NCBI GenBank assembly: GCA_015689705.1
Contig: WVSN01000001.1
Location: 310,001-374,000, forward strand
Direction: 5' to 3'
DNA from: Rhodobacterales bacterium HKCCE3408
GTDB taxonomy: Bacteria; Pseudomonadota; Alphaproteobacteria; Rhodobacterales; Rhodobacteraceae
DNA: 64,000 nt
The notes beneath the pieces are model-generated. The model was not told the origin of the DNA and searched no databases. It saw only the letters and a list, made by a program, of their open reading frames with translations. Numbering within the stretch: position 1 is the first letter of the stretch; each line of letters starts with the position of its first letter. Positions 13,652 through 35,311 of this stretch are shown piece by piece. Made by a program: the position numbers and the translations under genes.

Positions 13652-14689
13652 TCAGACGAGCCCTTTGCGGAGCAGATCGCCGGCCGCGTCGGCCACGGCC
13701 TCGGGGCCCGGGCGTGGCTGCCATCCGAGGTCCCGCCGCGCCTTGGCCGAGTTTGCCCGGCGGCGGCGGCCCAGTTCCGGCAGGATACGCCGGGCTTGCG
13801 GGCTGACCAGCGCCGCGATCCGGATGAGCCAGGTGGGTACGGTTCGCGTCGGCAGTTTCGGAGCGGCCTCGGGATGGGCGGTGCGGATCGCATCGGCCAT
13901 CTCGCGCAGCATCATGTAGTCCGAACTGGCTAGGAACCGTTCGCCCGCCGCCTCGGGGGTTTCCATCGCGAGAACGTGGAGCGCCGCGACGTCGCGGACA
14001 TCGACCACGCCGAAGCCGAAGTCGATGTATCCCGGGAACATGCCATTCATCAGGCCCGAGACGACCTGGAGCGAGGCGGAGTCGTCCTGTCCGAGCATCG
14101 GCCCGAGCACGAGGACCGGGTTGACCACGGCAAGTTCCATTTCTCCCTGATGGTCCGCCATGAAGTCCCACGCCGCCTTCTCGGCCACGGTCTTCGACAG
14201 CGAATACGCGGTGTGGTCGTTCACGAGTTCGGTCGGCGCCCAGTCGGTTTCGTCGTACTCGGTCTTGCCGTCATTGCCGTGCCCGTAGCCGATGGCGGCC
14301 ATGGACGAGGTCAGGACAACGCGTTTCACGCCGGCCTCGAGGGCGAAGCGCAACGCACGGAGCGCGCCATCGCGGGCCGGGATCACGAGATCGTCGGGGT
14401 CGTCGGGCTGCGACATCGGGAAGGGCGAGGCCACGTGCTGGACAAACTCCACACCCTCCATCGCCTCGGCCCACCCCTCGTCGGATGTGAGGTCGAGCGC
14501 GACGCACTCGAGCGCGTCCGTCCGATCGGTATGGGCGGCCAGAGTCGCCCGAACGCCGTCCGCCTTCGACAGCGAGCGCATCGTGCCGCGCACGCGGTAG
14601 CCTTTCTCCAGCAACTGCAGAATGACGTGCTGTCCGATGAAGCCGGTCGCTCCGGTCACGAGAACGAGGGGGGCTGGTGCGTCGGTCAT
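13652..14689 (-). CDS. NAD(P)-dependent epimerase/reductase of the extended SDR family
   Basis: 345-residue Rossmann enzyme like dihydroflavonol-reductase and aldehyde-reductase relatives. Nucleotide motif VTGATGFIGQHV at residues 10-21, the catalytic Ser region VVLTSSMAAIGYG, and the active pair YSLSK (Tyr-x3-Lys). VNPVLVLGPMLG and DVRDVAALHV are typical of this subgroup. The substrate, probably a ketone or aldehyde, cannot be predicted. Divergent from a TetR gene with 95 bases between starts; that gap holds two matching operator-like palindromes, so control by the neighbouring TetR is likely. Confidence 0.9.
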   Translation of the reverse strand: MTDAPAPLVLVTGATGFIGQHVILQLLEKGYRVRGTMRSLSKADGVRATLAAHTDRTDALECVALDLTSDEGWAEAMEGVEFVQHVASPFPMSQPDDPDDLVIPARDGALRALRFALEAGVKRVVLTSSMAAIGYGHGNDGKTEYDETDWAPTELVNDHTAYSLSKTVAEKAAWDFMADHQGEMELAVVNPVLVLGPMLGQDDSASLQVVSGLMNGMFPGYIDFGFGVVDVRDVAALHVLAMETPEAAGERFLASSDYMMLREMADAIRTAHPEAAPKLPTRTVPTWLIRIAALVSPQARRILPELGRRRRANSAKARRDLGWQPRPGPEAVADAAGDLLRKGLV

Positions 14690-14725
14690 GGTCTGTCCTT
14701 CGGCGGTTGCGGAGGGGAACGGCTT

Positions 14726-14751
14726 CTGACATTTTGGTCAGAGTTTGTCAG
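14726..14751. promoter_or_regulatory. Operator-like palindrome 1 between SDR and tetR
   Basis: CTGACA at 14726-14731 and TGTCAG at 14746-14751 separated by exactly 14 bases. An inner CTGAC-N6-GTCAG palindrome also lies at 14726-14741. The right arm overlaps a candidate tetR -35 (TTGTCA, 14745-14750). It lies 37 bases upstream of the SDR start. Confidence 0.65.
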
Positions 14752-14766
14752 GTGATGAGGGCGATG

Positions 14767-14790
14767 TGACAATCGAGACAGGACATGTCA
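14767..14790. promoter_or_regulatory. Operator-like palindrome 2 over the tetR start
   Basis: TGACA at 14767-14771 and TGTCA at 14786-14790, again with exactly 14 bases between, displaced 40 bases from palindrome 1. The left arm overlaps a candidate tetR -10 (GACAAT, 14768-14773) and the right arm overlaps the tetR ATG. Confidence 0.65.
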
Positions 14791-15375
14791 ACCAGTAGCG
14801 CCGACGATCTGGGCGCCAGGAAACTGCAAGGCATCCGGACCGCGGCTGTCGAGGCCTTCCTGCTCTACGGCTTCAAGCGAACCTCGATGGAGGATATCGC
14901 GCAGCGTGCCGGCATGTCCCGCGCCGCGCTGTACCTGCATTTCCGCAACAAGACCGATGTCTTCCGGTCGGTGACCGAAGGCGTCTACGAAGAAGGGCTG
15001 GAGCGGTTCGCCGCCGCGCTCGACCCGGATGGCGATGTCGCCGAAACCGTCGCGGCGGCGTTCCTCGCCAAAGATGCCGGGTTGACCGAGCGCGTTCTCG
15101 CCTCGCCGCACGGAGCCGAGATCATGGGGATGGGTCAGGAGGCCGCCGCCGACATCGCCCGGTCGGGCGAGTCGCGTCTGGCCGCGAGGCTCGCCCGGTA
15201 CCTCGGGGAGACGGTGCGCCGCCGCGGTCTTTCACCCCGGGCCGCCCCGGAGGAGATCGCCGAATTTGCGTTCAAGGCTTATGGCGGGCTGACGAAGACG
15301 GGCGCTGCGGGCGGGTCGCACCGACGCGGCGTCGCGCTTCTGGGGCAGTCGGTGGCGGCGCTTCTCGGCGCCTGA
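14785..15375 (+). CDS. TetR/AcrR-family transcriptional regulator
   Basis: 196-residue repressor-type protein. The N-terminal helix-turn-helix is clear: VEAFLLYGFKRTSMEDIAQRAGMSRAALYLHFRNK at about residues 23-57, followed by a divergent all-helical ligand domain. ATG 14785 has no convincing ribosome site, and a candidate promoter (TTGTCA 14745-14750, 17 bases, GACAAT 14768-14773) would place the transcript start a few bases before the ATG, so translation may be nearly leaderless. The target is probably the divergent SDR gene plus itself, through the paired palindromes. Ligand unknown. Confidence 0.92.
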   Translation: MSTSSADDLGARKLQGIRTAAVEAFLLYGFKRTSMEDIAQRAGMSRAALYLHFRNKTDVFRSVTEGVYEEGLERFAAALDPDGDVAETVAAAFLAKDAGLTERVLASPHGAEIMGMGQEAAADIARSGESRLAARLARYLGETVRRRGLSPRAAPEEIAEFAFKAYGGLTKTGAAGGSHRRGVALLGQSVAALLGA

Positions 15376-33938: not shown

Positions 33939-35311
33939 GCCCGCACCTTCAGCACGTCCGCCGCGTGCCCCGCATCCTCGTGGAACGCCCGCCACAGCAT
34001 CCCCTCGGCCGCCCTCAGCCGGTACTCGGCCGAAGCGCGCATGTCCGACATGGGCTTGAAATCACGGGCAAAGGCCGGGATCGCGGCCGCTACCGTCGCT
34101 TCGGTCCAGGGCTGCCCCGTCAGCGCCGCCTCGACTGCCGAGGCCCGCTTCGGCACGCCCGCCATGCCGCCGAACGCAATCCGCGCCGCGGTCACCATCC
34201 CGTCCTCCACGGTGATGCTGAAGCAGCCGCAGACCGCCGAGATATCCTGGTCGAACCGTTTCGAAAGCTTGTAGCAGCGCAGCCGGTCGGGCTGGCGCGG
34301 GACGCTCACCGCCTCGACGAACTCGCCCGGGCGGCGGTCCTGCTTGCCGTAGTCGAGGAAGAACTCCTCCAGCGGCAGGTCCCGCCGCTCGTCTCCGCGC
34401 CTCAGGTGCAGCGTCGCGCCAAGCGCGATCAGCGCGGGCGGGCTGTCCCCGATGGGTGAGCCGTTGGCGATATTGCCCCCGACCGTCGCGGCGTTCCGCA
34501 CCTGCACCGAGCCGTAACGCCGGATCAACTCGGCGAAGCCGGGATGCAGGTCGGCCATGGCCGCGTGCAATTCGCTCAGCGTCGTCATCGCGCCGATCCG
34601 GATGGTGTCATCGCCGATCTCGACGCCCTTCAGGTCCGCGCAGCGCCCGAGAAAGGCGACCGGCGCCAGCTCCCGCAACTGCTTCGTCACCCAAAGCCCC
34701 ACATCCGTCGCCCCGGCGATCAGCGTGGCGTCGGGATGCGCCTCACACCACGCGGCAAGCTCGTCGGCCGAGGACGGGATGAACGGCGACGACCCGTCCC
34801 CCGCCGACAGCCCCGCGACCGCGGCGGCATCCGTCCGCATCCAGGCCGGAACCGGCGCGTGCGCCGCCGCTTCCGCCGCGCGCACGATCGGCGCGTAGCC
34901 CGTGCAGCGGCACAGATTCCCCGCCAGCTGGTCGTCGTGATCGGTCCGTGCGTTCAGCTGCGCCACTGCCATCGAGACGACGAAGCCCGGCGTGCAGAAC
35001 CCGCACTGCGATCCGTGATGGGCGACCATCGCCTCCTGCACCGGGTGCAGCGCCCCGTCCGGGCCGGAAATCCCCTCGACCGTGCGCACGGCCTTCCCGT
35101 CGATCTGCGGCAGGAACAGGATGCAGGCGTTCAGCGCCCGCGACCCGCGCTCGTCGGTCACCATGACCGTGCAGGCGCCGCAATCGCCCTCGTTGCAGCC
35201 TTCCTTGGTGCCGGTGAGACCCCGTCGTTCGCGCAGCCAGTCCAGAAGCGTGGTCGTCGGATCGGCCTCCACGTCTTCCGGGGCGCCGTTCAGCAGGAAC
35301 CGGATGGCCAT
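33935..35311 (-). CDS. xdhA: Xanthine dehydrogenase small subunit (2Fe-2S and FAD)
   Basis: 458 residues. The N-terminal ferredoxin domain has [11 protein letters not shown] with a fourth Cys in NACILFLP; the second [2Fe-2S] domain has CGFCTPGF and CRCTGY; the FAD domain begins with [21 protein letters not shown] and has [19 protein letters not shown]-dehydrogenase flavoprotein C-terminal domain closes the protein. This arrangement, with separate A and B subunits, matches the Rhodobacter capsulatus enzyme. First gene of the overlapping xdhABC-transporter run. The 153 bases to the upstream ArsR-type gene should hold the operon promoter; I could not single it out. Confidence 0.96.

Follow-up and report, generated by a model that had tools for sequence, protein, structure and literature searches.

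Twin palindromes in an SDR/tetR gap as predicted operators of a TetR-family repressor, with a third site before an unlinked molybdopterin oxidase operon

The SDR/tetR gap

The window, meaning the whole 64-kb stretch of DNA analysed here, carries a divergent gene pair, an extended SDR and tetR, whose shared control region contains two palindromes. The features discussed below are:

13652..14689, minus strand: extended SDR of 345 aa, predicted target (open reading frame, Pfam Epimerase and 3Beta_HSD matches, solved structures)
14690..14784, no strand: shared divergent control region (sequence)
14696..14700, minus strand: Shine-Dalgarno-like AAGGA, upstream of the SDR start codon at a distance of six bases (sequence)
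14727..14750, no strand: predicted operator site 1, TGACA-N14-TGTCA (exact match)
14745..14750, plus strand: candidate tetR -35, TTGTCA (consensus scan)
14767..14790, no strand: predicted operator site 2, TGACA-N14-TGTCA (exact match)
14768..14773, plus strand: candidate tetR -10, GACAAT, with a 17-bp spacer and a TG before it (consensus scan)
14785..15375, plus strand: tetR, 196 aa, TetR_N domain, predicted repressor of both sites (open reading frame, Pfam, an operator that follows homologues)

The initial annotation had described twin TGACA-N14-TGTCA palindromes with identical arms and spacer, and both are exact where it had placed them, 40 bp apart from start to start. They are the only exact copies in the window (dinucleotide shuffles gave a mean of 0.00), and a rough estimate from base composition puts the chance of two such copies in the gap at about 1e-9. 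The right arm of site 1 overlaps the candidate tetR -35, and the SDR start codon lies 37 bases from this site; the left arm of site 2 overlaps the candidate -10, and the tetR ATG falls within the right arm of this site. The promoter hexamers claimed to lie under the operator arms are indeed there and, although imperfect (9/12 matches), TTGTCA-N17-GACAAT is the sole sigma-70-like pair in 14600-14900, where shuffles gave a mean of 0.1. No minus-strand promoter for the SDR gene passed the consensus scan of the same interval. TCCTT, the complement strand of the SDR Shine-Dalgarno, is invariant across five aligned sequences, and because AAGGA precedes the SDR start a leader is to be expected on the SDR transcript, in contrast to that of tetR. 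Site 1 also contains an inner palindrome, CTGAC-N6-GTCAG (14726-14741), which is comparable in length to the site of one TetR dimer and has a GAC-n6-GTC core in common with the AcuR operator. A terminator-like match at 14710-14728, overlapping site 1, was taken as chance.

The predicted regulator belongs to the TetR/AcrR family by its TetR_N domain (57.3 bits against a Pfam cut-off of 24, residues 17-62) and by two conserved palindromic operators near its own promoter, binding to which is predicted only. None of the 17 NCBIfam TetR equivalogs listed scored above its cut-off, the best being of the ScbR type (51.3 bits against 150). The nearest solved relatives of the SDR include cinnamoyl-CoA, methylglyoxal and dihydroflavonol reductases and aldehyde reductase II, and it falls below all cut-offs of the NCBIfam families listed for it.

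Conservation of the operator with TetR

Homologues of the TetR protein were found (E<=1e-20) in 77 of 394 family genomes, a set that covers part of the family. Within 260 bp upstream of the residue-13 codon, 75/77 loci have one exact site or more, a count in which, as in the spacing counts below, 12 of the 77 loci were taken from the operator search and not the tetR search; an exact site occurs in 0/689 control tiles from the same loci. The two loci without an exact copy (G012 and G418) each have a one-mismatch copy. Two exactly matching sites are present in 45 of the 77 loci; when one mismatch is allowed at least two are present in 63, the window's locus included. The spacer is 14 in 75/77 loci; a spacer of 22 ranks second, with 52 loci, and arises from an arm of the central core described below. 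Gammaproteobacterial relatives (L039-L042) have one exact site each. In the regulators themselves, 89-90 of 90 homologues retain the HTH residues S45, R46, Y50 and K56, whether the partner is an SDR or iorA; at position 47, 50 have Pro and 31 Ala.

The initial annotation had suggested looking for the same pair next to orthologues in related genomes. Searched for by its pattern alone, the pair occurs in 46 of the 394 genomes, all 46 of them within the 77 and with the pair beside tetR (compared by eye), and reversed-pattern controls were 0 throughout the table as read. Among the relatives compared that have the same gene pair, none had lost both palindromes: L031, L033 and L034 have two exact sites and L013 keeps one, while L032 has site 1 with a 13-base spacer and site 2 with one arm mismatch, hence no exact copy. 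Taken as sequence evidence, this conservation of operator with regulator supports the proposed autorepression by the adjacent TetR. In the genus mate G001 no tetR was found at E<=1e-20 and no SDR at E<=1e-60, and the tetR/SDR pair is therefore sporadic and patchily distributed.

Partner genes and the TetR tree

The gene divergent to tetR encodes a 2Fe-2S protein of the xanthine-oxidase family (iorA) in 73 of the 77 loci, mostly of 154 aa, with Fer2 and Fer2_2 domains in the one divergent example scanned. The four exceptions are the extended SDR of the window, a classical SDR in G348, and G012 and G418, in which no partner was recognised. Shared control of the divergent reductase, as proposed in the initial annotation, is supported by operator conservation, with the correction that the oxidase and not the reductase is the usual partner.

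In a TetR tree of 90 rows (from 92, two proteins shorter than 150 aa having been dropped), the SDR-partnered regulators of the window (L001) and L031-L034 form one clade (100/99). This clade is nested in a 16-row group that is otherwise iorA-partnered (100/96); its exact sister has modest support (98/66), and the bootstrap of the tree had not converged. Because the SDR clade sits inside an iorA-partnered group, the SDR is most simply read as a derived, replacement partner in the window's clade. The SDR-partnered TetR of G004 falls elsewhere in the tree on a long branch. All SDR relatives encountered in the 61-71% identity range were neighbours of tetR, and the best relative listed from the 394 genomes, the window's own aside, has 48% identity. 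Of 75 SDR matches listed, 30 loci were checked, and two of these have an operator within 300 bp upstream, namely that of the window and the tetR-linked locus of G004; the other 28 are without one.

Spacing between the sites

Among the 63 two-site loci, near-copies with one mismatch included, the start-to-start distance is 34 bp in 51, 35 in five, 42 in four, and 26, 40 and 47 in one each, the 40 being the window. It is 33 in L031, L033 and L034 and 32 in L032. The four helical turns that the initial annotation had read into the 40-bp distance carry no special meaning: with spacings of 32, 33, 34, 35 and 42 in relatives, variation of this extent means that the sites need not keep a fixed helical phase, and four-turn phasing was ruled out as a requirement. 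The 40-bp spacing of the window, together with a start codon inside site 2, is unusual in the family.

A core that leads into site 2, TGTCAATTGACA, hardly varies among 51 loci (for example L061 and L068) and reads TTGACA on both strands. It could provide back-to-back -35 elements for divergent promoters or, alternatively, could be a further binding element. A -10 of iorA inside site 1 is plausible, and the position expected for the family tetR -10 is weak (consensus CAGAAC). The core is missing in the window and in L031-L034. Three loci with 42-bp spacing (L085, L110 and L115) have eight extra bases between the sites, which apparently split the shared core.

Start of the tetR gene

Downstream of an in-frame TGA, the first start codon to be met is ATG 14785, which, as the initial annotation had stated, lies inside the right arm of site 2. 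That annotation had also reported a missing ribosome site, and no usable Shine-Dalgarno was found before this ATG, as AGGA at 14780-14783 is only one base away and too close for use. The promoter-like pair predicts a transcript start about 5 nt before the ATG. No special mRNA structure was found at the start codon (z -0.24).

In a set of 92 loci (the 77 plus 15 extra, at least one duplicate included, L035 being the same as L076), the tetR ATG lies 10-14 nt past the last site in 63, the start being taken as the most upstream in-frame ATG that precedes the last base of this site (<=1 mismatch) by no more than 6 nt; the distance is inflated where only site 1 was recognised (for example 45). If TTGACA at site 2 is combined with a spacer of 17 bp, transcription in the family would be expected to begin at the ATG or right beside it. 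Upstream of tetR a Shine-Dalgarno-like core is present in 4/58 loci versus 37/44 for the divergent iorA, counted over the 58 of the 77 loci with an ATG 9-14 nt past the last site and the 44 of these in which the iorA start was placed by motif. This contrast is suggestive but not clean, because the right arm of site 2 occupies some of the counted bases. The near-leaderless tetR mRNA of the original proposal would fit both the family geometry and the missing Shine-Dalgarno.

The tetR start in the window seems to have moved upstream, and the promoter of the initial annotation fits such a move. In L033 (Boseongicola), an in-frame ATG lies inside site 2 at 2947-2967, in the same place as the start in the window, and the conserved downstream ATG is kept as well. 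The window may represent a further stage in the shift of a start codon into the operator.

A third site before an oxidase operon

The genome of the window (47 contigs, 3.9 Mb) has three exact sites, the pair and a further copy on another contig (C6:49233-49256), 49 bases upstream of its best iorA, the product of which is 68% identical to the tetR-linked IorA of L061. The operon encodes, in order, a 2Fe-2S subunit, a molybdopterin subunit of 744 aa whose N-terminus is twin-arginine-like, and a protein of 221 aa that carries two CXXCH motifs and is read as a putative cytochrome c, although Pfam gave no match for it. The best solved relative of IorB is the large subunit of the aldehyde dehydrogenase 8gy3 (E 1.2e-53). 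An exact site also lies about 56-76 bases before the best iorA in the genomes of L031-L034 (G434-G437), so that all five SDR-clade genomes have the site about 49-76 bases before an iorA whose product is 68-81% identical to the L061 IorA. The operator is absent before the other iorA homologues examined, three of three in the window's genome and three of three in its relatives, of 12 listed. No tetR homologue was found around the oxidase in stretches of 3.3-12.5 kb in these five genomes, each of which has a single tetR homologue (at 1e-20 in the window's genome and 1e-10 in the relatives). Isolated exact sites, one to several per genome, are present at other places as well, and it is therefore the position of the site and not its mere presence that carries the argument for control in trans. 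Taken together with the conservation described above, the comparisons suggest that the most likely targets of TetR are its own gene, the neighbouring reductase gene and, in trans, the oxidase operon.

A further 2Fe-2S subunit homologue lies within the window itself, on the minus strand at 34871-35299 (344871-345299 of contig C1) in a 459-aa frame; no operator was found upstream of it, the best 24-mer having three arm mismatches. G004, which has tetR, the SDR and one exact site, has no site before its best iorA. In G418 no operator was found upstream of iorA, and a different TetR-like gene (33% identity) lies near this operator-less orthologue (locus L192), a possible case of regulator replacement. 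No close iorA was found in G348 and G438, which have a classical SDR partner, the best matches being 42% and 44% identical.

Alternative readings

The sites could be operators of this TetR while the start or promoter of tetR lies elsewhere, either at CTG 14809 or through transcription from upstream. In L031-L034 the ATG lies 16-17 nt past site 2, where the window has this CTG, and L033 has both an in-site and a downstream ATG. However, CTG is a rare start codon, there is no Shine-Dalgarno before 14809 either, the only promoter-like pair points to ATG 14785, and the family geometry sets the start codon close to the operator. ATG 14785 is hence the best start candidate, though not a proven one, with CTG 14809 also possible, and we regard a start or promoter elsewhere as unlikely, though still a reading to be reckoned with. 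A more distant possibility is that the pair belongs to another regulator, particularly one of the CrtJ/PpsR type. Sites of that type have the form TGT-N12-ACA, and the TGTCA-N8-TGACA sites before photosynthesis operons of R. sphaeroides are presumably PpsR sites. The half-sites are similar and the family core TGTCAATTGACA has the same arm order, with TGTCA-N8-TGACA among the sites given for those operons in the consulted part of the source (PMC4344238). Orientation and spacing differ from the TGACA-N14-TGTCA found here, however; in the reverse arm order the family has mostly spacers of 10 and 2, a spacer of 8 in only 1/77 loci, and the window one of 16. The motif also tracks tetR across genomes. 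A CrtJ/PpsR identity was accordingly rejected, and another regulator altogether appears highly improbable.

It might also be that the sites control tetR and the SDR only and that the iorA site is a chance match, as the single exact sites elsewhere in these genomes and the lack of one before iorA in G004 would allow. Set against this are its presence in 5/5 SDR-clade genomes at a similar distance before one particular iorA, its absence before the six other homologues examined, a rough chance probability of 1e-4 per genome, and the nesting of the SDR clade among iorA-partnered regulators. We judge a chance match improbable.

Proposed mechanism and significance

The preferred reading, which we consider very probable from these sequence comparisons, is that the palindromes are operators of the adjacent TetR, which would also repress the SDR and, via the third site, the unlinked oxidase operon. 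Without inducer the repressor would sit on both gap sites and block its own near-leaderless promoter, occupancy of site 1 covering the -35 and that of site 2 the -10 and start codon, and would at the same time block the divergent SDR promoter. At the third operator it would block the iorA-iorB-cytochrome c operon, which is predicted to encode a molybdopterin oxidase of the aldehyde-dehydrogenase type. The inducer would be a small molecule tied to the substrate of the enzymes, most likely an aldehyde or its product, and release of the repressor would jointly induce the reductase (predicted to be cytoplasmic) and the oxidase (predicted to be exported). Both enzymes likely act on aldehydes, because the nearest solved relatives of both are aldehyde-type; by analogy with the nicotine dehydrogenase locus of Agrobacterium tumefaciens S33 described below, an N-heteroaromatic inducer would be an alternative.

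A wider reading, for which we see the case as evenly poised, is that of a widespread and apparently undescribed regulon: a leaderless, doubly operated TetR ancestrally placed on an exported molybdo-oxidase and, in the clade of the window, beside a reductase with the oxidase kept in trans, so as to command both oxidation and reduction of one class of compounds. On this reading the tetR start codon of the window would itself have shifted into the operator. A regulator present in 77 of 394 sampled family genomes, with a defined operator and two enzyme systems, constitutes a testable regulon, and a common substrate of the two systems would point to the inducer. The locus also offers a traceable case in which a regulator leaves its usual target and the operator before that target survives, and the family supplies many loci on which leaderless regulator mRNAs of Proteobacteria could be compared.

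Comparison with known systems

The literature searched (mainly open-access, by titles and abstract openings) gave no account of this TetR, its operator or a TetR-controlled IorAB-type operon in the group. In NCBIfam, the large oxidase subunit of the window's genome and the small subunit of L061 both fall below the cut-offs for equivalogs. The operon resembles membrane-bound aldehyde dehydrogenases and PaoABC-type enzymes in having a 2Fe-2S and a large molybdopterin subunit, followed by a putative cytochrome c with CXXCH motifs. The divergent tetR/tetA pairs of Tn10 and Tn1721 have tandem operators over both promoters and are autoregulated; they have short operators, an efflux target and no known third site. 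The present locus is like them in its divergent target, tandem operators and proposed autoregulation, and unlike them in its longer operators, enzyme targets and third site. The tetR of Tn1721 is cited as leaderless in the excerpted AcuR report (PMC3017554).

AcuR of Rhodobacter sphaeroides, a TetR-family protein, was shown experimentally to have a leaderless mRNA starting exactly at the AUG with no Shine-Dalgarno, and the same excerpts describe one operator, TAATAGAC-n6-GTCTATTA, over the promoter of the co-transcribed, acrylate-induced acuR-acuI-dddL genes (PMC3017554). As far as that partial account extends, the TetR studied here is similar in its family, a predicted inverted-repeat operator over its own promoter, predicted catabolic targets and a candidate near-leaderless mRNA, and differs in having two TGACA-N14-TGTCA sites between divergent genes and a third in trans. 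An operator of the AcuR type, TAATAGAC-n6-GTCTATTA, was considered for the window and rejected in favour of TGACA-N14-TGTCA.

Operators of the dimer-of-dimers regulators QacR, CgmR and CprB measure 22-32 bp versus 15-17 bp for single dimers, according to the portion of the source cited (PMC4150764). The likeness to these lies in the long operator: because its 24 bp exceed the 15-17 bp of single-dimer TetR sites, two dimers may bind each site, by analogy with that portion. The inner half-sites that a strict dimer-of-dimers model would place in the 24-bp operator are weakly conserved. In Agrobacterium tumefaciens S33, a TetR-family gene whose product is 36% identical to NicR2 is divergent to the nicotine dehydrogenase genes ndhAB, the regulation of which by this gene is, in the text consulted, proposed only (PMC5500553). 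As there, 73 of the 77 relatives have a tetR gene opposite a two-subunit molybdopterin/2Fe-2S enzyme, a likeness, within what that text covers, of gene layout alone.
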